Made by a program: the position numbers and the translations under genes. The notes beneath the pieces are model-generated. The model made no database searches, was not told where the DNA came from, and saw nothing but the letters and a program-made list of their open reading frames with translations. Source: Thermanaerovibrio velox DSM 12556 (lineage in GTDB: Bacteria; Synergistota; Synergistia; Synergistales; Synergistaceae). Taken from it: DNA of 64,000 bases. Where the stretch lies: positions 1,302,001 through 1,366,000 of the forward strand of contig NZ_CM001377.1 in assembly GCF_000237825.1 (NCBI RefSeq). Direction: 5' to 3'. Shown piece by piece: positions 50,992 to 63,102 of this stretch. Each line of letters opens with the position of its first letter. Positions within the stretch are counted from its first letter, which is position 1.

Positions 50992-52185
50992 CTACCTCAT
51001 GGACTTCAAGATCTCAACGCCCTTCCTGACCTGAGGGTCCTTGGCAAGATCCCCCATGGGCTCCCCGGACACCTTCACGTCCGGGTTCAATCCCACCTTG
51101 TCTATCATGCGTCCCGAAGGGGTGTAGTACCGGGCGATGGTAACGTACATGCCCGCCCCATCGGGCAGGTTGAACAGGGTCTGAACGGACCCCTTGCCGA
51201 AGCTCTTGACCCCCACAAGCTTGGCCCTCCCATGATCCTTAAGGGCCCCTGCCACTATCTCCGAGGCACTGGCACTGCCCTCGTTGATGAGCACCACCAA
51301 AGGTCCCTTGAACTTAACCCTTCCGGAGGCGTACATGGCTTCGTTGGCCCTGTCAACCCTTCCCTTGGTGCTCACCACAAGATCCCCATCGTTCAGGAAG
51401 CAGGAGGCCACGTCCGCCGCGGCGTTAAGGAGTCCGCCGGGGTTGTTACGAAGATCCAAAACAATGCCCTTAGCCCCCTTGGAAGAGGCCCAAGCCACCG
51501 CCTCCGCCATCTCCTGCCCAGCGGTCTGGGTGAAATGGGCAAGCCTCACATAGGCGTACTTGTCCTTGAGCATCTCCTTCCGAACCGAACGGATCTTTAT
51601 GATCTCCCTGATGAGATCGAACTTAATTATCTCATCCTTGCCCTTGCGACGAACCCAAACGGTTACCTTCGTCCCCGCCGGGCCCCGGAGCATGTTGACC
51701 ACCTCATCCTGGTTCATCCCCACCACTATTTTGTCCCCAACCTTCACTATCTCATCCATGGGCTTAAGGCCCGCCCGCTCTGCAGGGGTGCCCTCCATGG
51801 GGCTTATGACCAGCACCTTGCCATCCCGCTGCCCCACGTACATGCCTACCCCTCCGTACTGACCCTCCATCTCTATGCTCTCTTCCTTAAGCTGGGAGGG
51901 ATCCACAAACCGGGTGTAGGGATCCCCGGCGGCGGCAACCATTCCCTTCATGGCCCCATAGAAAAGCTTCTGCTCCCCGGGCAGCTTGTCCGCATCAACA
52001 TGGTAAAGATCTATTATAGCCCTTGCCTGCCTGAGTATGGCCATGTTCCTGGGGGAGAAGGGGTCCTTGATGGAACCCTGCTGAATGCCATCCCCCGCCA
52101 TGGCAGCCATAACCCCCGTTACCGCCAAGGCCCCTATGATGACGCCCAATACAAGATCTCTGAAGCGTTTGAACAAGGATCTCAC
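50992..52185 (-). CDS. ctpA: S41 family C-terminal processing protease
   Basis: A 397-aa membrane-anchored serine protease. An N-terminal hydrophobic segment (LVLGVIIGALAVTGVMAAMAG) precedes a PDZ domain (about 85-175, with GGVGMYVGQRDGKVLVISPM) and the protease core, with Ser in NEGSASASEIVAGAL and Lys in GVKSFGKGSVQT. Such enzymes trim peptidoglycan hydrolases and other envelope proteins. GTG 52185 is chosen because GAAGGGAA lies just ahead and it places the membrane helix near the N-terminus; the frame is open from 52242. It follows the EnvC-like gene in the same direction. Confidence 0.93.
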   Translation of the reverse strand: MRSLFKRFRDLVLGVIIGALAVTGVMAAMAGDGIQQGSIKDPFSPRNMAILRQARAIIDLYHVDADKLPGEQKLFYGAMKGMVAAAGDPYTRFVDPSQLKEESIEMEGQYGGVGMYVGQRDGKVLVISPMEGTPAERAGLKPMDEIVKVGDKIVVGMNQDEVVNMLRGPAGTKVTVWVRRKGKDEIIKFDLIREIIKIRSVRKEMLKDKYAYVRLAHFTQTAGQEMAEAVAWASSKGAKGIVLDLRNNPGGLLNAAADVASCFLNDGDLVVSTKGRVDRANEAMYASGRVKFKGPLVVLINEGSASASEIVAGALKDHGRAKLVGVKSFGKGSVQTLFNLPDGAGMYVTIARYYTPSGRMIDKVGLNPDVKVSGEPMGDLAKDPQVRKGVEILKSMR

Positions 52186-52278
52186 ACTTCCCTTCGTCCT
52201 GCGCAGTGGAATGAATGTCAACGGGTAGACCCCCAGGCCCACACCGCCAGACCTTCTGGCAAACCCAGCTTCCGCGTT

Positions 52279-53481
52279 CTACTGCAGGTAACCCCTCGGG
52301 TTTGTGGCCTTCCCGTTGACCCGGACCTCAAAGTGAAGGTGCGGCCCCGTGGCAATGCCGGTGCTCCCAACCCTACCTATTACCTCTCCACGGCCAACCT
52401 TCTCTCCCTCGTTTACCTCTATCTTGGAAAGGTGGGCATACACGGTGGTTATATCACCCCCGTGGTCAAGTATTATCACCTGACCGTAACCTCTTAGCCA
52501 TCCGGCATACAACACCTCTCCGTTCTCCGCCGCCCTTACGGGATCCCCATGGTTGCCCGATATGTCTATCCCGGTGTGCATTATCCTGGTCCTGAAAACC
52601 GGGTGAACCCTTACCCCAAAGGAGCTTCGGATCTGCCCAACCACCGGCCAGGCGAGGCGTCCTCCCTTATAGTATATGACCTCTTTAGGCGCCGATGCCT
52701 TGATCTGGGCCGCCCGGGCCCGGGCCTCCGCAAGCCTTCGGCGCTTCTCCTCCATCAACCTGGTTATGGTGGAGTTTATGGCCTGCTCCATCCTCTGGTA
52801 CTCCTGAAGCTCCGCCAGGTGCAGGCTCTTCTCGCTCCTAACCCGTTTCAGCAGATCGTTCCTCCTGTCCGAGGCCACCTTCAGCCGATACTTGTTGTCC
52901 TGCAGGTCCTGGTTCTGCTTCTCCAGAAGTGCCCTCTGCTCCGCCAGCTCCCTGTGGGCCATGCTCAGCCGGGTCTTCCGGTCCGAGAGCTCCCTTATGA
53001 GCCGCTGGTCCTGATCCGCTATCCTACCCAAAAGATACGAGGTGGAAAGGGCATCCATCGCACCAGGAGCCGACAGGAGCAGGTTGAACTCCGCTATGCC
53101 GCCATACTTGTATATGGCCACCAGCCGGGCCTTGAGAAGCTCCTTAACGTAATCTATCCTGGTGGAGGTGTTCCGTATCTCCGACACCAGCTGCCTCATC
53201 CGTTCCTTCACCTTCTCACGCTGAAGGCTCAAAACCGATATGCGCTGTTCCGTCACCGCGATCTGCTGGGCCAAGGTCTCGATCTCCGAGATGACGTCCC
53301 TCTCCTTGCCCTCCATCTCCTTGACCTTCCTCTGGTGATAGGATATCTGGCTTTGAACCTGATTAAGCCTCTTCTCCTCCTGCTTTAGGCGCCTCTCTAG
53401 ATCGGAGGCCCCGGCGGCATAGGACCTTTCGCACAGGACCGCCAGCAGGGAAAAGGCTAGGAAGAACCGCTTAAACCCCAT
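52279..53481 (-). CDS. EnvC-like murein hydrolase activator, M23 peptidase domain
   Basis: A 400-aa exported protein. Signal peptide (RFFLAFSLLAVLCERSYA), then a long coiled coil (about 30-260) rich in Glu, Gln, Arg and Lys, then a C-terminal M23/LytM domain with SFGVRVHPVF, HTGIDIS and HLHFEVR. The zinc ligands (H and D of HTGID, H of HLHFE) are present, so it may cut peptidoglycan itself, unlike E. coli EnvC. It sits directly after ftsX, matching the known FtsEX-to-coiled-coil activation scheme. The start at 53481 is the ATG before the signal sequence; a longer start at 53502 has no clear site. Confidence 0.92.
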   Translation of the reverse strand: MGFKRFFLAFSLLAVLCERSYAAGASDLERRLKQEEKRLNQVQSQISYHQRKVKEMEGKERDVISEIETLAQQIAVTEQRISVLSLQREKVKERMRQLVSEIRNTSTRIDYVKELLKARLVAIYKYGGIAEFNLLLSAPGAMDALSTSYLLGRIADQDQRLIRELSDRKTRLSMAHRELAEQRALLEKQNQDLQDNKYRLKVASDRRNDLLKRVRSEKSLHLAELQEYQRMEQAINSTITRLMEEKRRRLAEARARAAQIKASAPKEVIYYKGGRLAWPVVGQIRSSFGVRVHPVFRTRIMHTGIDISGNHGDPVRAAENGEVLYAGWLRGYGQVIILDHGGDITTVYAHLSKIEVNEGEKVGRGEVIGRVGSTGIATGPHLHFEVRVNGKATNPRGYLQ

Positions 53482-53508
53482 GGTTCCCACCGTTCCAATC
53501 ATCCACGG

Positions 53509-54393
53509 CTAAAGGGGCTTAAGGGCCCTTCTGATGAAGCGCTCCACCGCCAGGAAGCTCGCGAAGAAGCTCACCAAGGCTCCCCCTCCCACCAGGACGC
53601 CACCAAGCCTCACGAGCAAGGAAGAGTCGTTCAAGAGCTCAAGGAAGGGCAGGAAGTCCTTGAGCCTCTCCACCGCTGCCCCGTAGGAGAAGGCTAGCAT
53701 CACGGAAGAGCAAAACGCCCCGAGGCTCCCCAAAAGGACCCCCTGTATTATGAAAGGCATGGCCACGAAAGACGGGGTGGCCCCCACCATGAGCATTATG
53801 GCGATCTCCTCCTCCTTGGAGTAGACCGCTATCCTTATGGTGTTGAAGAGGACGACACCGCTTGCCGCCACCGCCACCAGCAGGACCGCAAGGGAGAATC
53901 GGCCCGCGAACCTGGACAGCTTTGCCAGCTTCTCCGCCAGCTTGCCAGCGTACACCACATCTTGAACCTCGTCCACCGCAACCAGCTCCCTCGCCACGAT
54001 GGGGACCGACGAGGCCTTGTCCACCCAGACCTCCACGCTGGGAGGAAGGGGGTTCTCTCCCAACAGGGTTATTGCCTGGGCTTGGCTTCCCAGCCGGGCC
54101 TTCAGGCGCTCAAGCGCCTTGGCGGGGGTTATGACCTCCACGGCCCTCACGTGGGGCATTCGACGCACCCTCGCAGCAAACCCGTTAAGGTCCACGTTGG
54201 GGGAGACATAGGCCTGAATGGACAACTCCCCCTCCAGGTTCTTCACCACATGCCGGGTGTTAAGCACGAAGAGGATGCTGGATCCCATGAGGTAGAAGAC
54301 CGCGGCGGAGGTGAACAGGGTGAGAAAACTCAAACCCCAGTGCCGAAAGACCAGCCTTAAACCGTCCCTTATGGCATACCTAAAGCTCCCCAT
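53509..54393 (-). CDS. ftsX: Cell division protein FtsX
   Basis: A 294-aa permease-like protein with four membrane helices: one near the N-terminus (FLTLFTSAAVFYLMGSSILFV), then an extracytoplasmic domain (about 45-150), then three more from about 165 onward. Family features are ELSIQAYVSPNVD, PHVRAVEVITPAKALERLK and EEEIAIMLMVGATPSFVAMPF. With FtsE it senses ATP turnover to trigger wall hydrolases at division. It overlaps ftsE by 14 nt and precedes the EnvC-like gene. Confidence 0.94.
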   Translation of the reverse strand: MGSFRYAIRDGLRLVFRHWGLSFLTLFTSAAVFYLMGSSILFVLNTRHVVKNLEGELSIQAYVSPNVDLNGFAARVRRMPHVRAVEVITPAKALERLKARLGSQAQAITLLGENPLPPSVEVWVDKASSVPIVARELVAVDEVQDVVYAGKLAEKLAKLSRFAGRFSLAVLLVAVAASGVVLFNTIRIAVYSKEEEIAIMLMVGATPSFVAMPFIIQGVLLGSLGAFCSSVMLAFSYGAAVERLKDFLPFLELLNDSSLLVRLGGVLVGGGALVSFFASFLAVERFIRRALKPL

Positions 54394-55075
54394 CTATCTC
54401 GTACCTTCCCCTCTTTTCATCTCTAACCACTCGCCCCATCTTGAGTTCCACCACCCGCTGCCTATAGGAGTCCACCAGGTACTGGTTGTGGGTGGCCATG
54501 AGCACCGTGGTCCCCATGGCGTTTATGGATAGGATGAGCTGCATTATCTCTTCCGCGGTATGAAGGTCCAGGTTGCCCGTTGGCTCGTCCGCCAGCAGTA
54601 TGGACGGGGAGTTCACTATGGCCCTGGCTATCGCCACCCGCTGCTGCTCACCCCCTGAAAGCTGCGGTGGGTAGAGAAAACGGCGCCGCCAAAGGTTCAC
54701 CCGCTCCAAAACCTCGTCGGTCCTCTCCTTAACCTCCCTAGGCGGCATCCCAAGCACTTCGAGCACGAAGGCCACGTTCTCGAAAACGTTAAGATGCGGC
54801 AAAAGGCAGAAGTCCTGATAGATAACCCCCACGTCCCGCCGGAACAGCGAAAGATCCACACGGCTTATCTTCCGCAAACTGTACGAACCCACCATGACCT
54901 GACCCCTGGTGGGCATTACCTCCCTGGTTATGGTCCTCATCAAAGTGGTCTTCCCCGATCCGGTGGGACCTACCAGATATACGAACTCCCCCTTGGGGAT
55001 CTCAAGATAGACATCCTCCAGGGCGGTTATGTCCGGATGGAAGATCTTGGTCACCCCTGACAAACGAATATCCAT
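54380..55075 (-). CDS. ftsE: Cell division ATP-binding protein FtsE
   Basis: A 231-aa ABC ATPase. Seen: Walker [14 protein letters not shown]-loop [12 protein letters not shown], signature [15 protein letters not shown], Walker [13 protein letters not shown] and the switch His in [27 protein letters not shown] near the start is typical of FtsE. It overlaps ftsX, and follows the transketolase-like half gene by 6 bp, so division and that odd enzyme pair are in one transcript. Confidence 0.96.
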
Positions 55076-55081
55076 GAAATG

Positions 55082-56023
55082 CTACCTCCTGCGCATGTTC
55101 AAAACCTGCACCGCCGCCCCAACTATCCTTCCGCTGGTGAGACCATAGTACTCCCGAAGCTCCTCATCGGACCCGCTTTGGCCAAACCGATCGTCTCCGC
55201 ACACAAGCCTAACCGGCACGGGATACTTGGAGGACAGGCACTGGCAGACCGCACTGCCGAGACCACCGAAAAGACTGTGCTCCTCCGCAACCACGCAGCA
55301 CCCGGTCCGCCTCACCGATGAAAGGACCACCTGTTCCGCCAGAGGCCTTACGGTGTAACAGTCTATTACCTCCGCGTCTATGCCCTGGCTCGAAAGCACC
55401 TGGGCGGCCTTTAATGCCTCGTGCACCATGATACCACAAGCACATATCGTGACCCCCTCCCCCTGGGTGAGCAGCCTAGCCCCCCCTATGGAGAAGTCCC
55501 CTTCGTCCAATCCGGTGAGATCCCGCAATGCCCGCCTGGTGAGCCTCATGTAGGAAGGGCCCTTCAAATCCACGGTAAGCCCTGTAAGCCTTCTGGTGGA
55601 TACCCCATCGCAGGGGACCAGAACCGGCATCCCCGGCATGGCGGTCATGAGGCCAAGGTCCTCCACCATCTGGCTTGGAGCCCCGTCGGGCCCCATGTCA
55701 AGCCCTCCGCAGGGGCTTACCAGGTGAACCTCCAATGACGGTATGGCCACCGAAGACCTTATGAGATCGTACGTCCTCCCCACCAGGAAGGGGCTGGAGG
55801 ATGACACGAACACCCTCTTGCCCCCCAAGGCCAGTCCGGCAGCGGTGAGCACCATCTCCTGCTCAGACATCCCCGCCACGAAGAACCTTCGGGGGTACAT
55901 GCTCTTGAACGCTCCGGACAGGGTGGGCTCCCTTGAATCCAGGACCACCAGATCCTCGATCTCCTCCCCCATGGCGCACAACGTCTCCTCGTAAGCGATC
56001 CACAGGGGGCTAGGTTCTCTCAT
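55082..56023 (-). CDS. Transketolase-like protein, C-terminal half, atypical
   Basis: A 313-aa protein matching the pyrimidine-binding and C-terminal domains of split transketolases. The Glu that activates TPP is kept in GMSEQEMVLTAAGLALGGK, and the overall order (SSPFLVGRTYDLIRSSV, GPDGAPSQMVEDLGLM, then CAVV-like C-terminal strands) fits. The usual DGATHQ reads DGAPSQ, so that His is absent. It pairs with the upstream N-terminal half, which has also lost its catalytic His residues. ATG 56023 has GGAGGAG about 8 nt upstream and overlaps the partner gene by 14 nt. Activity cannot be assumed. Confidence 0.83.
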   Translation of the reverse strand: MREPSPLWIAYEETLCAMGEEIEDLVVLDSREPTLSGAFKSMYPRRFFVAGMSEQEMVLTAAGLALGGKRVFVSSSSPFLVGRTYDLIRSSVAIPSLEVHLVSPCGGLDMGPDGAPSQMVEDLGLMTAMPGMPVLVPCDGVSTRRLTGLTVDLKGPSYMRLTRRALRDLTGLDEGDFSIGGARLLTQGEGVTICACGIMVHEALKAAQVLSSQGIDAEVIDCYTVRPLAEQVVLSSVRRTGCCVVAEEHSLFGGLGSAVCQCLSSKYPVPVRLVCGDDRFGQSGSDEELREYYGLTSGRIVGAAVQVLNMRRR

Positions 56024-56852
56024 CGGAAGGTCTCCTCCCATCTGATTCTATGGAGCTTATCGCCACGTCCACATCCTCCCGGGATAAGGGACCCCTGCAG
56101 GACGAACCGCCGGGCAGGAGAACCCCCCCGGCCTCCCGGGTCCTCAATATCACCGCCTTGGGCGAGTCTACCCCCATGATGGAACGGAAGGTGGCGTCCA
56201 TGGACATGAAATCATGTCCATCCCCCTCCGCCACGGTCCAGCCAAAGGACTCAAGCTTTGCCTTTATGGTGTCAACGCTGTCCACGGGACCCCACTGCTC
56301 CTTGCCGTGATCGGTAACGTTTATCACCGCCACCAGCCCACCAAGCCTCCTGAACGACGCGGAAAAGGCGGCCTCCCACACGGTCCCGTCTCGAAGCTCC
56401 CCATCTCCCATGAGGCAAAAGGTCCTGCAGGGCATTTTGTCCATCTGAAGCGACATGGACAACCCCACCGCCATACCCAACCCCATCCCCGACGGACCGG
56501 AAGGGGCATCCAAACCGGGTATCCTGCGGTACTCCGGGTTCCCCTGAAGAAGGGCCCCCAGACGACCGAAGCTCCAAAGCTCTTCCCGGCTGAAGAAACC
56601 GCGCCTTGCCAGTACGGCGTACAGCACCGGAGCGGCCCTACGTTTGCTCAGGATGAACCTGTCCCTCCTGAGGTCCCTGGGGTTTGACGGATCCACAGAA
56701 AGGGCCTCCCAATAAAGGTACACCAACAGGTCCGCCAAGGCCAATGAGGACTCCAAACATCCGACCTTGGCCAGGCCTATCATCCTCACCACGTCCTTGC
56801 GGACCTCCCGAGCTATGGATATGAGCTCCTTAGACCTTTCCTCACTCAACAC
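56010..56852 (-). CDS. Transketolase-like protein, N-terminal half, lacking canonical His residues
   Basis: A 280-aa protein with the layout of split transketolase N-terminal (TPP-binding) subunits: LSVDPSNPRDLRRDRFILSK, then LYAVLARRGFFSREELW, APSGPSGMGLGMAVGLSMSL and GDGELRDGTVWEAAF. Several family-defining residues differ: SGHPGG is replaced around VGCLES (Cys32), SKGHAA by SKRRAA (Arg72), LQGHP by LQGNP (Asn105), and the usual Mg-ligand Asn after GDG aligns with Thr180 (Asn178 is two residues away). Its substrate or activity must have changed, or it has become a structural or regulatory protein. GTG 56852 start, weak site, 6 bp after csaB. Confidence 0.82.
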   Translation of the reverse strand: MLSEERSKELISIAREVRKDVVRMIGLAKVGCLESSLALADLLVYLYWEALSVDPSNPRDLRRDRFILSKRRAAPVLYAVLARRGFFSREELWSFGRLGALLQGNPEYRRIPGLDAPSGPSGMGLGMAVGLSMSLQMDKMPCRTFCLMGDGELRDGTVWEAAFSASFRRLGGLVAVINVTDHGKEQWGPVDSVDTIKAKLESFGWTVAEGDGHDFMSMDATFRSIMGVDSPKAVILRTREAGGVLLPGGSSCRGPLSREDVDVAISSIESDGRRPSDERT

Positions 56853-56858
56853 GGCACA

Positions 56859-57896
56859 TCACCGCCCGCCCACAGGGTCCGGCTTCAATTTTAATTTTAA
56901 CAGCGCCGTCCCCATCGCATCCCTCAAAGCCTGGGCGGATTCCTCCAGAACCCCGGGATCTACCCCTTTCCCAAGGACTATATCCCCTTCCCCAACGTGT
57001 TTAGGGATCCCGAAGGCGTCTGCAAAGGACTCCACCTTCGGATCATAAGGCAAGGCCCCGCAGGGCAACCCAGAAAGGGCGGACAACACGACCCCGTGCA
57101 GCCTCATGGACAGAGATCCTCCAGCCCGGGACGCCATCTCCTCGAAGTCCCCAAGGGTCCTTAAAAGCTTCACCTGAGACCACCGTACCCCAAAGGTCTC
57201 AAGGTCCCTCAGGGGGATGAGATCCTCCTGAGCCATGGCGAACCCAACAGGGGAAAGGCCAGTGGCGCTGGCAAGCCTCATTATGGACCTGGCCAGTTTA
57301 GAAAGGTCAAACGACTTGGAGGGCCTCACGTTAACCAAAAGGTGCTCCTCCTTGGACCTTAGGACCGAGGGCCTTAGGGCCATCACTGGATCCGGAGCCA
57401 AAGCCGCCGCCCCTATGCCCATGGACTGAGCCATCGCCACGGAACGCCTGTCCCGGAACACCCTGACCTTACAGGCCCCAAGAGCCCTTTTAGCGAGGGC
57501 CCTTCCCAGGGCGGTTCGAAGGGGGCCCAAGGACTGGCCGAACGCCCAAGGGACTGCCCCGGCCCTCCTGGCAAGCCAGACCACCCCGGAGTAATACACG
57601 GGGCTCTTTATGCTTGTGACGTCCTGAAAGAGGCCTCCGCCGCCTAAAAGCAGCGTGCTGGCAGAACGCAGGAAGCCGCTGACCTTGCGGAGGCTCCAAC
57701 GGTTCTCCGCCCTGACGGACAGCTCCGCGGCAGTAACCTCCGGTGAAGCGGACAGAACACCTATGCGGGACCTCGGTATCCCGCATCCCTCCAGGAGCTC
57801 CACCAAGCCCCGGGCCAAGAGCTCATCCCCAAGGTTGCCAAACCCGTAGTAGCCGCACAGGACCACCTGAAGATCCCTTTCCCCCGGCCTCGTCAT
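56859..57896 (-). CDS. csaB: Polysaccharide pyruvyl transferase CsaB
   Basis: A 345-aa transferase that adds pyruvate from phosphoenolpyruvate to a secondary cell-wall polymer, which then holds S-layer proteins with SLH domains. Seen: VLCGYYGFGNLGDELL at the start, LLLGGGGLFQDVTS, FGQSLGPLRT and SMRLHGVVLSALSGLP. It overlaps the DUF5693 gene as ATGA. CsaB and DUF5693 are often adjacent in bacteria with S-layers, which supports such an envelope here. Confidence 0.94.
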   Translation of the reverse strand: MTRPGERDLQVVLCGYYGFGNLGDELLARGLVELLEGCGIPRSRIGVLSASPEVTAAELSVRAENRWSLRKVSGFLRSASTLLLGGGGLFQDVTSIKSPVYYSGVVWLARRAGAVPWAFGQSLGPLRTALGRALAKRALGACKVRVFRDRRSVAMAQSMGIGAAALAPDPVMALRPSVLRSKEEHLLVNVRPSKSFDLSKLARSIMRLASATGLSPVGFAMAQEDLIPLRDLETFGVRWSQVKLLRTLGDFEEMASRAGGSLSMRLHGVVLSALSGLPCGALPYDPKVESFADAFGIPKHVGEGDIVLGKGVDPGVLEESAQALRDAMGTALLKLKLKPDPVGGR

Positions 57897-59824
57897 GACC
57901 TTAACCTCCCGGCTCGGTAGTTAAACACGGCGCCAAGGGATACGAACAGCACAAGGCCTATAAGGCACCCGGTCCAAAGACCGTTGAAACCCCGCAACAA
58001 GGTCAACGGATAAGGGGTGTGAAGATGACAGAAGGAGTTGACCGCGGATGCGAAGGCCAGGGAGGACACAATCCGGAAAACCTCCTGAAGCCTTGGGACA
58101 ATTCCCCTGGCGGACAGCCAGGAGGTCACGAAAAGGCAGGGATACCCCAAGAGCTCCTTGGTCCTGGGACGGACCAGCAGCAACCGCTCCAACCACTCGC
58201 GGAAAGACAGCTCCCACTGGGGCACCAGGGCGGTGTTGTCGCTCCTTACCGCCATGAAGGCGAGGCCCGCCAGGAGAATACCGGCCACCATCAGTTCACC
58301 CCAAAGGGGAGGACGTTTCAGTATCTCCGCTCCCTCCGGGTATCTTCGCTTCAGCACATCGTTCAGGACCACCATGACCGGCGGCAGTACGAGGGTGAGC
58401 TTAACCCCTGAAAACACCTCAACCCTCAGCATGTACAGGCTGAAGCCGTACATGGCACCTATGGCGGTGCCAACCGCCAAAGCCACCGCGAAACCCCACA
58501 GGGCCCCCCTTAAGGGGCTCTTCTGGTCCAACGCCCTGAGGGCCGCCTCAGAGGCCCCCAAGGCCCCGAGGAGGGCCCCCATAAGCTTCATCGGGAAGCC
58601 CCCGGCGATGGAGGCCCCCAATGCAAGCAGCAGCGGAACCCCCAAGTATAAGGGGATCAGGCGGGGACTGTTCAACAGCCGGACCTCGGAGAAGCGGTTC
58701 AGCAGGGACATCATCACCGCCAGGAGCGCAAGGGCCGCACCAAACGGGGCTATGCGGGACCTTCCCACCGGCTGCTCCGCCGAAGGGAACCCCATAATAT
58801 ACCCCCGGGCCCTAAGGGAAGCGCTCAGCAGATCGAGGTCCTCGGTGAAGCTGCCAAGCCTCTCCCCTGGGTAAAGGTCATAGGGACGGACCAGAAGCAG
58901 CCTCACGGTCCTCTCGTGAACCGCCCGTACCATGCGCTCCACCAGCTGCTCCCTGGTTATGGACTTGGAGAAGACCTCGTCCTTGATCACGCTGTGAAGG
59001 GGTATGAGGTTAGGGAAGGCGGACTTGCCAGCCTGTACCATGCCGATCTGCTTCACGAACTCCGGCTGGGCCAGGAACATGGACTCCCCCCTTAGCAACG
59101 CCCCTAGGGGCTCCAGCTGGGGGTAGCCCGCCACGGTAAGTCCAGCGGGGAGTATGCCCCTTATGAGGTAACCGTGGGAGAGGAGGGTCTCTATCCCCGA
59201 AGCAACAGCCCCGCCACCAACACCTATGCAGGGAAGGGGACGGAACAAAACTGGGAAACCGAGCCGGCGGGCCAGCTCCAAGCCTTCGAAGTCCGGAACC
59301 AACCCCGAATCCAATAGGTCGGACATACCAAGGGACAGCAGGACCGCCAGGTACCCCGATGAGGACATCCTGGATGAGGCGGGGAACTTGGCGGATAGGT
59401 AAGGCATTGCCAGCCTCATGTTGGGGTCATCCGCGGAGGACCAAAGGACCGCTCTATCCTTGGGAACCCCCTGGACCGGCAATGGGAACGGCAGGTCCCG
59501 CACCGGGGAGAGCCTTAAGGAGCCAAACCCGGAGATCAGGTCCCGGCCGGTCAACTCCCCTACCAAAAGCCCGCTGAGCCCCTTGGCCCTAAGGGATTCA
59601 GCCAGCCCTGAGGGCGTGGCCCTACCTTCCCTGGCGAGGGAGACCAGGTCCCTGTACTCAAGCACTATGCCCACCTTGCGGTTCCCAACCTCCGCCCTCA
59701 CCCTGGGAAGAAGCGAGAAGAGGGACACACATAGGGAGGCCACCAGGAGGGCCACAAAGAAGGAACTGCCCCTTCCGTCCGCTGCCCCCCCCCGAAGCTG
59801 GCCACCCTTTGGGAAATGGATCAT
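57893..59824 (-). CDS. DUF5693 family membrane protein
   Basis: A 643-aa membrane protein. One N-terminal helix (FFVALLVASLCVSLFSLLP) is followed by a large extracytoplasmic domain (about 45-345) and then about eight hydrophobic helices (about 350-640). The context next to csaB, and the large outer domain plus membrane block, fit a role in secondary cell-wall polymer or S-layer anchoring, but the family has no established function. Start and stop overlap both neighbours by 4 nt. Confidence 0.85.
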   Translation of the reverse strand: MIHFPKGGQLRGGAADGRGSSFFVALLVASLCVSLFSLLPRVRAEVGNRKVGIVLEYRDLVSLAREGRATPSGLAESLRAKGLSGLLVGELTGRDLISGFGSLRLSPVRDLPFPLPVQGVPKDRAVLWSSADDPNMRLAMPYLSAKFPASSRMSSSGYLAVLLSLGMSDLLDSGLVPDFEGLELARRLGFPVLFRPLPCIGVGGGAVASGIETLLSHGYLIRGILPAGLTVAGYPQLEPLGALLRGESMFLAQPEFVKQIGMVQAGKSAFPNLIPLHSVIKDEVFSKSITREQLVERMVRAVHERTVRLLLVRPYDLYPGERLGSFTEDLDLLSASLRARGYIMGFPSAEQPVGRSRIAPFGAALALLAVMMSLLNRFSEVRLLNSPRLIPLYLGVPLLLALGASIAGGFPMKLMGALLGALGASEAALRALDQKSPLRGALWGFAVALAVGTAIGAMYGFSLYMLRVEVFSGVKLTLVLPPVMVVLNDVLKRRYPEGAEILKRPPLWGELMVAGILLAGLAFMAVRSDNTALVPQWELSFREWLERLLLVRPRTKELLGYPCLFVTSWLSARGIVPRLQEVFRIVSSLAFASAVNSFCHLHTPYPLTLLRGFNGLWTGCLIGLVLFVSLGAVFNYRAGRLRS

Positions 59825-60411
59825 AAGCTCACACCCCCAAGCTGATCTGAAAGGCTGAAGCCCATCTCCTCAAGGAGGCGGCTCAGCCTCAAGACCGGAA
59901 GCCCCACCACGTTGAAATAACATCCCTCGATCGATTCCACCAACATGGCCCCCTTGCCCTGGATAGCGTAGCTTCCCGCCTTGTCATCCCCCTCACCGGT
60001 GTTGATGTAGCAAGCGGCGTCCTCAGCCGAAAGGGGTCTGAACAGGACCCGGGTGGTCTCAACCCCCGATACGGATCTATCCCCCAGCACCAGGGACACT
60101 CCGGTGTGTACCCGGTGGGTCCTGCCCTGAAGGGCCATCAGCATCCTAAGCCCTTCGTCCCTGCCATTGGGTTTGCCGAATATCTGACCGTCCAGCTCGA
60201 CAACCGTGTCGGCCCCGATCACAAGGGCATCGGGGGCCCTCAAAGCCACGTCCCTGGCCTTCGCCAGGGACAGCCTGAGCACCATATCCTCCGGCGACTC
60301 TCCGGGAAGGGGTGACTCATCAACCTGGGATACCACCACTTGGAAGTTCCATCCCAACGCGGCGAGCAACTCCCTCCTCCGGGGACTGCCTGAGGCCAGT
60401 ATCAACCTCAT
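59821..60411 (-). CDS. maf: Maf-like nucleoside triphosphate pyrophosphatase
   Basis: A 196-aa Maf protein, hydrolysing dTTP, UTP or modified nucleotides to monophosphates. Seen: LILASGSPRRRELL at the N-terminus, VIGADTVVELDGQIFGKP with the metal-binding Asp, and DKAGSYAIQGKGAMLVESIEG. ATG 60411 overlaps the DUF4321 stop as ATGA; a TTG four codons earlier is too close to its site. It is part of the tightly packed leftward cluster. Confidence 0.94.
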   Translation of the reverse strand: MRLILASGSPRRRELLAALGWNFQVVVSQVDESPLPGESPEDMVLRLSLAKARDVALRAPDALVIGADTVVELDGQIFGKPNGRDEGLRMLMALQGRTHRVHTGVSLVLGDRSVSGVETTRVLFRPLSAEDAACYINTGEGDDKAGSYAIQGKGAMLVESIEGCYFNVVGLPVLRLSRLLEEMGFSLSDQLGGVSL

Positions 60412-60665
60412 CGGGCAAGCCAAACTCCTATCACTCCTCCCAAAAAAGTTCCAAGGTTGAAGTCCATGCTGAAACTAACCCTAAAGCTAAATGCTATGAC
60501 ATCCACATGGCCCGAGTCCAATCCGAAGGACAAGAGGTCTCGGAAGAGCGGGGCGGAGAAGGAGAACATCTGCATCATCTTGCCCGCGAAACCGCCCATC
60601 ATTAGACATAGTATGACTACGATCCAGCCGGGGATGCCCTTCTGAAGCCCCTTGGCCATCCTCAT
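60408..60665 (-). CDS. DUF4321 small membrane protein
   Basis: An 85-aa protein with two membrane helices (WIVVILCLMMGGFAGKMM and FNLGTFLGGVIGVWLA) and a short loop between them, matching the small DUF4321 family often found beside maf in Firmicutes and relatives. ATG 60665 overlaps the uppP stop as ATGA and its own stop overlaps maf. A longer frame from 60815 runs inside uppP and is not real. Function unknown. Confidence 0.8.
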   Translation of the reverse strand: MRMAKGLQKGIPGWIVVILCLMMGGFAGKMMQMFSFSAPLFRDLLSFGLDSGHVDVIAFSFRVSFSMDFNLGTFLGGVIGVWLAR

Positions 60666-61474
60666 ACACCGAGCAAGGAGAAACCCACCACCGCGGTACC
60701 AAGCAATAAGCAGTAGGCACCAAACATCCACCAGGCCCTGAAGAGGGAGACCCGTCTTAAAGCCACAAGGGAGAGGAAACCCGCGGCCCCAGCGGCCACG
60801 AAACCTATGGGCCACCCATGGGGGAGGGACGAAAGGAACGCGGCGTATCCCCCGCCGTCAAAGACCTCAACCAGGGTAGCCCCGATCACCGCAGGAACCG
60901 ACAGGAGGAACGAGAACCGGAAGGCCTCCAAAGGTGAGAGACCCACCGCCAAGGCCGCCACTATGGTGCTGCCGGACCTGGATATACCGGGCATGACCGC
61001 TATGCCCTGAGCCAGTCCGACCACGAGTCCCACCATGAGCCCAACCTTCCTGGCTCCAGGGGGGATGAACCTGGAAACGGTGAGCACGATGCCGGTAACG
61101 ACCAAACCGGCACCAACCCAAAGGGAGTTCTGGGACGCGGTCTCCACCAGGGGCTTGAGGGGAAGGCCCACCAAGGCGGTCACCACGGTGCCTGCGATCA
61201 CCGCCCATCCATACCTCCATCCCTCAGAGGACCTGGCATCCTCCGAGAAGAACCCCCAAAGGAAATCCCGGAGGAACCTAAGCATGTCTACGGCGAAGTA
61301 CGCCACCACCGCAAGCAAGGTTGCCATGTGGAGGATCAGGTCGAAACCCATCTGGGGCCCCTTAATGCCCAAGAAGATCTGCACCAGCGCCAGGTGCCCG
61401 GAGCTGCTTATGGGCAGGAACTCGGAGAAACCCTGCACCAACCCCAGGAGCACAGGGTACAAAACAACCCCCAT
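60662..61474 (-). CDS. uppP: Undecaprenyl-diphosphate phosphatase UppP (BacA)
   Basis: A 270-aa integral membrane phosphatase that recycles the undecaprenyl carrier for wall and polymer synthesis. Seen: the catalytic motifs FSEFLPISSSGHLALV near the N-terminus and MPGISRSGSTIVAAL in the second half, with about eight hydrophobic helices. The start at 61474 overlaps the transporter stop (TGATG). Placement near csaB, DUF5693 and the division genes fits envelope building. Confidence 0.95.
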   Translation of the reverse strand: MGVVLYPVLLGLVQGFSEFLPISSSGHLALVQIFLGIKGPQMGFDLILHMATLLAVVAYFAVDMLRFLRDFLWGFFSEDARSSEGWRYGWAVIAGTVVTALVGLPLKPLVETASQNSLWVGAGLVVTGIVLTVSRFIPPGARKVGLMVGLVVGLAQGIAVMPGISRSGSTIVAALAVGLSPLEAFRFSFLLSVPAVIGATLVEVFDGGGYAAFLSSLPHGWPIGFVAAGAAGFLSLVALRRVSLFRAWWMFGAYCLLLGTAVVGFSLLGV

Positions 61475-63102
61475 CAAGCCTCGCACACCTCCTGCCCTCT
61501 CACCTTAGCCATGTCCATGACCACGCAGGCCAGGTTATGGGCATGGTCCCCAACCCGCTCAAGGTTGCTCAAGATGTCTATGAACACCACCCCGGCCCCT
61601 GGGCTGCACTTGCCGTGGTTAAGCCTGTCGATGTGTCGGGCCCTGAGACGCTTTTCCATCTCGTCCACCCGGTCCTCAAGCTCCATTACCTCCCCCGCCA
61701 GGCACAGGTCCTCCTTGTCCAAGGCCTCAATGCTCTTGCTCACCGCCTCGTAAACCAGGGAGAACATCTCCTCGAACTCCTTCATGGCGGACTCCGTGAA
61801 CTTAAGGTTATGGTCCCTCATATACTGGTACATCTCGACCAGGTTAGTGGAGTGATCCCCCATCCGCTCTATGTCCCCAACCCCGTTTATGCAGGAGTTC
61901 AGGAGGAACGAGAGGTCCGATGAGAGGCCCTTCTGGCCGAGCTCCGTCCCGTAACGGACTATCTCATGGGTGAGCTCGTTCACTATCTTTTCGGTGTTAA
62001 GGACGTCGGCCGCGCTGGAATCACTCCATTTAACGATGGCCCCCCTGCATCCCTCAAGCATTGACTTGGCAAAGTAGCCCATCCGGACCATCTCCTTCTT
62101 GAGGGCGTCCAGGGCGGCGGCGGGTGAAGCGGATATCAGGTTACGATCCAGGAAGGCGGGTCCGTAAACCTTAACCACCCCGTCGTCTGGGACTATGCGC
62201 CTTATCAGGTTCACGTAGGGTTTCACGAATGGGAGGAATATCAGGGTGTTCGCCACGTTGAAGAAGGTATGAGCGTTGGCCACCTGCCGTGATATGTCCG
62301 AAGCAGTGAGGGCTATGAGCTTGGAATACCATGGCAGCAGGGGCAGCATGATCAAGGTTCCAAGCACGTTGAACATCACATGGCACGCTGCCGCCTGTTT
62401 GGCGGACCTGTTGCCTCCCAAGGAGGCCAGCACCGCCGTTATGGTGGTGCCTATGTTGTCGCCCAAGATAAAGGCTATCGCCACGTTCAGGGGCATGAAG
62501 CCCTGAGACGCCATGGCCATGGTAAGCCCCACGGTGGCGGAGCTGGATTGAATCACCATGGTGACCGCCGTGCCCGCGAAGACCGCCCAAATGGGATGGT
62601 GCCTAAAGGGCATGAACAGGTCATCCCTGCCCTTCAAGAAGGACATGGAGTCCCCCATGATGTGCATCCCTATGAACAGTATGCCGAACCCTGCAAGCCC
62701 GGCCCCTATCTCCCGCTGGCGTTTCGTCTTGGACATGAGGAAGAGAAAGGCCCCGATCAACACGCACAGGTAGGCGATGTCGGTTATCTTGAAGGCCATT
62801 ATCTGGGCCGTCACGGTTGTGCCTATGTTGGCCCCCATTATCACCCCAAAGGCCTGATAAAGGGTCATGAGCCCCGCGTGGACAAAGCTCACCACCATGA
62901 CGGTGGTAGCGCTGCTGCTCTGAATAATGGTGGTGACCGCAGTACCCACTATAACCCCTTTGATGGGAGTTCCCGTGAGCTTGGCTATGAGACGTCTCAG
63001 ACGATCCCCTGCCAGGTTCTGCAGGGAGTCTCCCATGACCTTTATTCCGTAGATCAACATCCCCACTCCGCCCAAGAGCTGAAGAAGGACCTTGAAGGAC
63101 AT
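61474..63102 (-). CDS. Na/Pi cotransporter family protein with PhoU-like domain
   Basis: A 542-aa sodium-phosphate cotransporter homologue. Two inverted repeats each carry the QSSSAT motif (TTIIQSSSATTVMVVSF and TMVIQSSSATVGLTMA), spread over about nine membrane helices (1-310). The C-terminal 200 residues are a soluble PhoU-like helical domain (IERMGDHSTNLVEM and LERVGDHAHNLA). It probably imports phosphate or sets phosphate balance. ATG 63102 has GGAGGGG upstream. RNase J lies upstream in the same direction (75 bp). Confidence 0.94.
   Translation of the reverse strand: MSFKVLLQLLGGVGMLIYGIKVMGDSLQNLAGDRLRRLIAKLTGTPIKGVIVGTAVTTIIQSSSATTVMVVSFVHAGLMTLYQAFGVIMGANIGTTVTAQIMAFKITDIAYLCVLIGAFLFLMSKTKRQREIGAGLAGFGILFIGMHIMGDSMSFLKGRDDLFMPFRHHPIWAVFAGTAVTMVIQSSSATVGLTMAMASQGFMPLNVAIAFILGDNIGTTITAVLASLGGNRSAKQAAACHVMFNVLGTLIMLPLLPWYSKLIALTASDISRQVANAHTFFNVANTLIFLPFVKPYVNLIRRIVPDDGVVKVYGPAFLDRNLISASPAAALDALKKEMVRMGYFAKSMLEGCRGAIVKWSDSSAADVLNTEKIVNELTHEIVRYGTELGQKGLSSDLSFLLNSCINGVGDIERMGDHSTNLVEMYQYMRDHNLKFTESAMKEFEEMFSLVYEAVSKSIEALDKEDLCLAGEVMELEDRVDEMEKRLRARHIDRLNHGKCSPGAGVVFIDILSNLERVGDHAHNLACVVMDMAKVRGQEVCEA

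Follow-up and report, generated by a model that had tools for sequence, protein, structure and literature searches.

Human TKTL1 is a fused eukaryotic enzyme with a deletion in its cofactor region; it has no operon context and is not known to be related to cell division. Like the gene pair of Thermanaerovibrio velox described here, it derives from transketolase, and its capacity for catalysis has been lost or is in dispute (PMC3485151, PMC6334435). Among solved structures, both the N-terminal (TKN) and the C-terminal (TKC) half of this pair come closest to the Carboxydothermus hydrogenoformans split transketolase (PDB 6yak/6yaj; E = 3.8e-51 and 8.7e-68, respectively), an α2β2 protein that shares with the pair the two-gene split and homology from end to end. 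The title of that entry describes an active heterotetramer and the catalytic histidines are present, whereas the T. velox pair has changes at 8 of its 13 active-site positions. Intact split transketolases of other phyla (e.g. L169, L170, L171, L224, L237) display the gene order TKN-TKC-ftsE-ftsX, often with touching or overlapping genes, as in T. velox; unlike in T. velox, every ftsE-linked TKC found there by starting from FtsE keeps the six C-half catalytic residues that were checked. In the literature library searched, no paper treats transketolase and ftsE/ftsX together as a unit.

The gene pair and its neighbourhood

The window analyzed is a stretch of 64,000 nucleotides of the T. velox DSM 12556 genome (contig NZ_CM001377.1, positions 1,302,001 to 1,366,000). 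Within it, the pair is accompanied by the following genes and features:

60662..61486, minus strand: uppP, named from sequence features
59821..60423, minus strand: maf, named from sequence features
57893..59824, minus strand: membrane protein gene, a conserved neighbour, which we take to be of the DUF5693 type
56859..57896, minus strand: csaB, of the polysaccharide pyruvyl transferase family and 6 nt upstream of TKN; the name, from the preliminary description, fits the sequence
56010..56852, minus strand: TKN, N-terminal (PP/ThDP-diphosphate) half of a split transketolase; His lost (C32, R72, N105), GDG kept
55082..56041, minus strand: TKC, C-terminal (PYR + Transketolase_C) half; PSQ stands in place of THQ, and the activating Glu is retained
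TKC residues 186-319: C-terminal domain, strongly conserved (TGCCVVAEEH...GGL, FGQSG, final RRR)
54380..55075, minus strand: ftsE, starting 6 nt after TKC
53509..54393, minus strand: ftsX
52279..53502, minus strand: EnvC/M23-type peptidase gene, named from sequence features and gene order
50992..52242, minus strand: ctpA-type S41 peptidase gene, named from sequence features and gene order

Both reading frames are uninterrupted, TKN comprising 280 amino acids from a GTG start and TKC 319 amino acids. They overlap by 32 nt and are separated by 6 nt each from csaB and ftsE, so that the open reading frame coordinates bear out the position between csaB and ftsEX, with overlap, that had been proposed in the preliminary description. 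No promoter or terminator internal to the operon clearly exceeded chance level.

Pfam searches matched TKN to PF00456 (9e-25) and TKC to PF02780 (2.8e-31) and PF02779 (8.8e-24), all above cut-off, and the AlphaFold model of TKN (pLDDT 86.8) had 6yak as its best match (TM 0.84). Against NCBIfam NF004559, a model of fused proteins with 627 positions, the two halves scored 185 and 225 bits, which even summed remain below the cut-off of 488. With the NCBIfam dxs equivalog, TKC reached 128.8 bits, below the cut-off of 465.95, and TKN gave no match. Pfam, PDB and NCBIfam searches thus upheld the end-to-end alignment of both halves with split transketolases noticed earlier, and the Pfam and NCBIfam profiles placed the pair outside any other characterised TPP family.

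Active-site residues of the window copy

Thirteen positions (yeast numbering), chosen on the basis of established knowledge of transketolase, were scored: H30, H69, H103, D157, E162, N187, H263, E418, F445, H469, D477, H481 and R528. The window pair retains five, and all six histidines (30, 69, 103, 263, 469 and 481) are replaced. Compared with intact split transketolases of other phyla, the three histidines of the N-terminal half have given way to Cys, Arg and Asn, and THQ to PSQ: SGHPGG reads VGCLES (Cys32), SKGHAA reads SKRRAA (Arg72), LQGHP reads LQGNP (Asn105) and DGATHQ reads DGAPSQ. Two more positions, His263 and His469, both align with Cys. GDG, the activating Glu (yeast 418; MSEQE) and Asp477 are retained. 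The ThDP-Mg motif GDG...N is incomplete in TKN, GDG being present and the Asn out of place; a two-residue insertion at the site of the Mg-ligand Asn gives it Thr or His as a partner, depending on the alignment. The four motif losses, the kept GDG and the kept Glu had been read correctly in the preliminary description, as had the displacement of the Asn, although the Thr that it aligned there is not a firm identity. These changes go far beyond chance, since the same drift is found in dozens of orthologues. Judged from its residues, the window copy has probably lost transketolase activity; weak TPP binding is possible, given that GDG, the activating Glu and Asp477 are kept.

A fixed operon place across Synergistota

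The pair was found in one neighbourhood at 82 loci of the phylum Synergistota, window included, typically in the order uppP-maf-DUF5693-csaB-TKN-TKC-ftsE-ftsX-envC-ctpA. The proposal that homologues might share the csaB/ftsEX surroundings was checked among the 81 relatives and the neighbourhood proved to be conserved: TKC adjoins ftsE in 80 of these loci, the exception (L054) running into a contig end, and csaB adjoins TKN in 75. At L134, L140, L141 and L149, ftsE still adjoins TKC, but no csaB was found next to TKN. Contig ends apart, the syntenic frames are near full-length. All syntenic copies lie on one side of a branch of the transketolase tree (one change, support 79), a grouping that indicates vertical inheritance of the operon pair.

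Five family f1 genomes (G003, G004, G007, G025 and G017) lack the pair, and their csaB and ftsE genes are immediate neighbours (L107, L108, L111, L113 and L114), which amounts to three changes on the neighbouring-gene tree; three genomes of genus g24 also have no pair beside ftsE. Given its clean deletion in several lineages, the role of the pair is dispensable there. As a separate observation, part of family f3 carries a tandem pair of envC-like genes 3' of ftsX (L134, L140, L141, L147-L149, L109, L110 and L112), and csaB was not found upstream in several of these f3 loci.

Split transketolases beside ftsEX in other phyla

The linkage was surveyed outside Synergistota in 80 named loci nearest to the protein of family f11 (the deepest family of the phylum, see below), a sample skewed in favour of intact motifs and of proteins related to an ftsE-linked one. 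Of these, 66 were usable (enough downstream sequence or a match); ftsX lay downstream on the same strand in 42 and ftsE within ca. 300 nt in 34. The hosts were Clostridia, Aminicenantes, Nitrospiraceae, Gastranaerophilales, Thermodesulfovibrionales, Thermoanaerobaculaceae, Actinomycetota and a Thermophilibacter record; L160-L239 include many loci in which ftsE-ftsX immediately follows an intact split transketolase (e.g. L169, L170, L171, L219, L224 and L237). When three groups were approached from the side of FtsE, a less biased sampling, reading 1.5 kb per locus, the pair was upstream in at least 8 of 30, 2 of 28 and 11 of 21 loci, which are lower bounds, and every FtsE-linked TKC found in this way was intact at the six C-half catalytic positions checked. 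Linkage to ftsEX outside Synergistota is therefore recurrent but patchy, and an eroded ftsEX-linked copy was observed only in Synergistota. A 545-amino acid frame resembling a TKC-FtsE fusion (L310:1480-3114, in a genome of the G190 phylum sample) was rejected as an artefact, the two parts being joined by an assembly gap filled with N.

Repeated erosion of the active site

All 13 residues are present in three genomes of family f11 (L121-L123), which lies outside the order Synergistales. Among the 78 Synergistales copies, 11-12 residues are kept in 10, 6-10 in 23 and 0-5 in 45; the 10 best-preserved copies may still be enzymes. His263 is kept in a single one of the 78, so its loss was probably the earliest. 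Mapped on the neighbouring-gene tree, His263 changed twice, H30 8 times, H69 6, H103 10, D157 9 and H481 9, with H30, H69, H103, H469 and H481 each changing 6-10 times; the active site was lost many times independently. Replacements are lineage-specific and define no common new site, His30 having become P, G, C, R or Y and His481 R, S, G or V. The GDG Asp and the activating Glu are lost as well in many of the more eroded operon orthologues.

A first comparison of conservation was partly circular, the eroded set having been picked by the same residues, and it was repeated with all Synergistales copies against an independent reference. Pocket columns are among the least conserved of the family: they keep the reference residue in 39% of cases, whereas the figure is 70% for the remaining columns conserved in the reference (78 copies, P = 0.0008).

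Constraint on the pair

Between the window and its closest sister, dN/dS (Nei-Gojobori) was 0.08 for TKN and 0.08 for TKC, compared to 0.12 for csaB, 0.18 for the DUF5693 gene and 0.05 for ftsX, values that are approximate at a sister dS of 0.6-1. In eroded pairs with measurable divergence the ratio was ca. 0.04-0.26, and in diverged pairs with 0-1 of the 13 residues it was 0.04-0.16. TKN and TKC are under purifying selection.

Along the erosion series, mean pairwise identity of the TKC C-terminal domain stays at 0.68-0.64, whereas the PP and PYR domains drop from 0.60 to 0.43 and 0.37-0.39. Intact transketolases of other phyla show the reverse order, PYR (0.61) exceeding the C-terminal domain (0.48). 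Near-invariant positions of TKC in the eroded set are TGCC, Q219, S242, S289-G290 and the final R317-R318-R319. While the cofactor domains decayed, constraint shifted to the TKC C-terminal domain.

A second transketolase in the same genomes

T. velox possesses another transketolase, L001, of the NF004556 type. This protein and the second copies in relatives rule out that the operon pair is the sole transketolase, a condition which, had it held, would have counted against the proposal of the preliminary description. L001 belongs to the same family as the operon pair, from which it differs in its intact motifs, its full length in sister genomes, its lack of linkage to ftsEX and an identity of only ca. 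30%. A PF00456 protein of this kind (ca. 625-715 amino acids) is present in nearly all of 61 relatives, matches to the second transketolase of G006 showed 60-70% identity in all eight Synergistales tested, and active-site motifs are kept in the five long copies that were aligned. No second transketolase was found in the three genomes of family f11 that are more than 95% complete, the best match in this family being the operon pair (ca. 40%); G061 is only 77% complete.

The second transketolase renders the operon copy redundant in Synergistales. Redundancy coincides with erosion, and the likely order of events is gain of the second transketolase followed by erosion. Loss of the pentose phosphate pathway was discarded as a cause: of 61 relatives, 58 have ribulose-phosphate epimerase and 49 a transaldolase/FSA-family protein.

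In T. velox itself, the intact-motif transketolase (L001:1408-3358; G000:C1, about 670846-672796) is split at a G-run at the domain boundary into two overlapping frames, and the same gene is a single frame of 681 amino acids in G002 and 657 in G001. Either the split is due to an error in sequencing, or the gene underwent fission recently and restarts at an ATG immediately ahead of the first stop.

Proposed role and alternative explanations

The explanation that we favour, and consider fairly probable, is that the pair is a pseudoenzyme whose retained role is non-catalytic and most likely exerted through the C-terminal domain of TKC in connection with FtsE/FtsX-EnvC or with csaB-linked envelope steps. 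According to this proposal, an active split transketolase would have been the ancestral transketolase of a division/envelope operon. The second, divergent full-length transketolase of Synergistales would have freed the operon copy from catalysis, and its active site would then have eroded many times independently. A TKN-TKC complex with the transketolase fold would be retained, the fold being shown by homology and the model and the complex being presumed; as a cytoplasmic partner or scaffold, it would act through the TKC C-terminal domain on the FtsE/FtsX-EnvC system or, alternatively, on the csaB-linked steps of the same operon. A possible partnership with FtsEX is suggested by gene order, and genes may be retained together in an operon without physical partnership of their products.

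Beside a pseudoenzyme, the preliminary description had offered an altered TPP enzyme that produces a precursor for the envelope. Such an enzyme, active with a new donor or acceptor and supplying an envelope polymer, e.g. with csaB, would fit the vicinity of csaB to TKN and the GDG and activating Glu of the window copy. However, the GDG Asp and this Glu are missing from many orthologues under similar purifying selection, the replacements of His30 and His481 vary by clade with no shared new active site, and constraint falls on the C-terminal domain rather than on the cofactor domains. We regard this explanation as unlikely, and new TPP chemistry is not supported; the pseudoenzyme half of the earlier suggestion, by contrast, gained support from the poorly conserved pocket, the lineage-specific drift, the loss of GDG and the activating Glu in some copies and the purifying selection.

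That the genes are merely decaying towards deletion, their frames held open only for translational coupling to ftsE, appears very improbable. The clean deletions in the five f1 genomes and the lack of a pair beside ftsE in genus g24 would be expected from decay, but dN/dS remains low even in copies with 0-1 residues, the C-terminal domain and its terminal RRR are highly conserved, frames at syntenic loci are near full-length, and erosion is common to several genera, too long a span for neutral decay. A regulatory pseudo-subunit of central metabolism, binding for instance sugar phosphates or the housekeeping transketolase and belonging to the operon only for historical reasons, has a precedent in the model of TKTL1 as a transketolase-like protein without activity (PMC3485151), and a second transketolase is indeed available. 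Against it, an identity of ca. 30% makes mixed oligomers unlikely, the substrate-pocket residues drift freely, and linkage to ftsE holds in 80 of the 81 loci where the pair persists at its operon place; we find it rather improbable.

The pseudoenzyme proposal can be tentatively extended beyond the phylum. Intact split transketolases often lie directly before ftsEX elsewhere, and erosion in Synergistota may thus expose an old second function. Split transketolases encoded with ftsEX would then be widespread moonlighting proteins that connect carbon metabolism with hydrolysis of the septal wall; Synergistales, having gained a replacement, would have removed catalysis and kept only the division role of the TKC C-terminal domain.

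The phylum provides a natural experiment in which a metabolic gene fixed beside ftsEX repeatedly loses catalysis and, for the most part, is not itself lost. If the retained role lies in division or envelope assembly, a link between metabolism and division becomes directly testable, with the warning that many Synergistota proteins annotated as transketolase are probably not transketolases. Apart from the operon pair, two genomes (G028 and G012) contain an unlinked split transketolase-like pair (L087, L088) in which GDG is changed to GNG and LQGHP is lost, possibly another degenerate transketolase.
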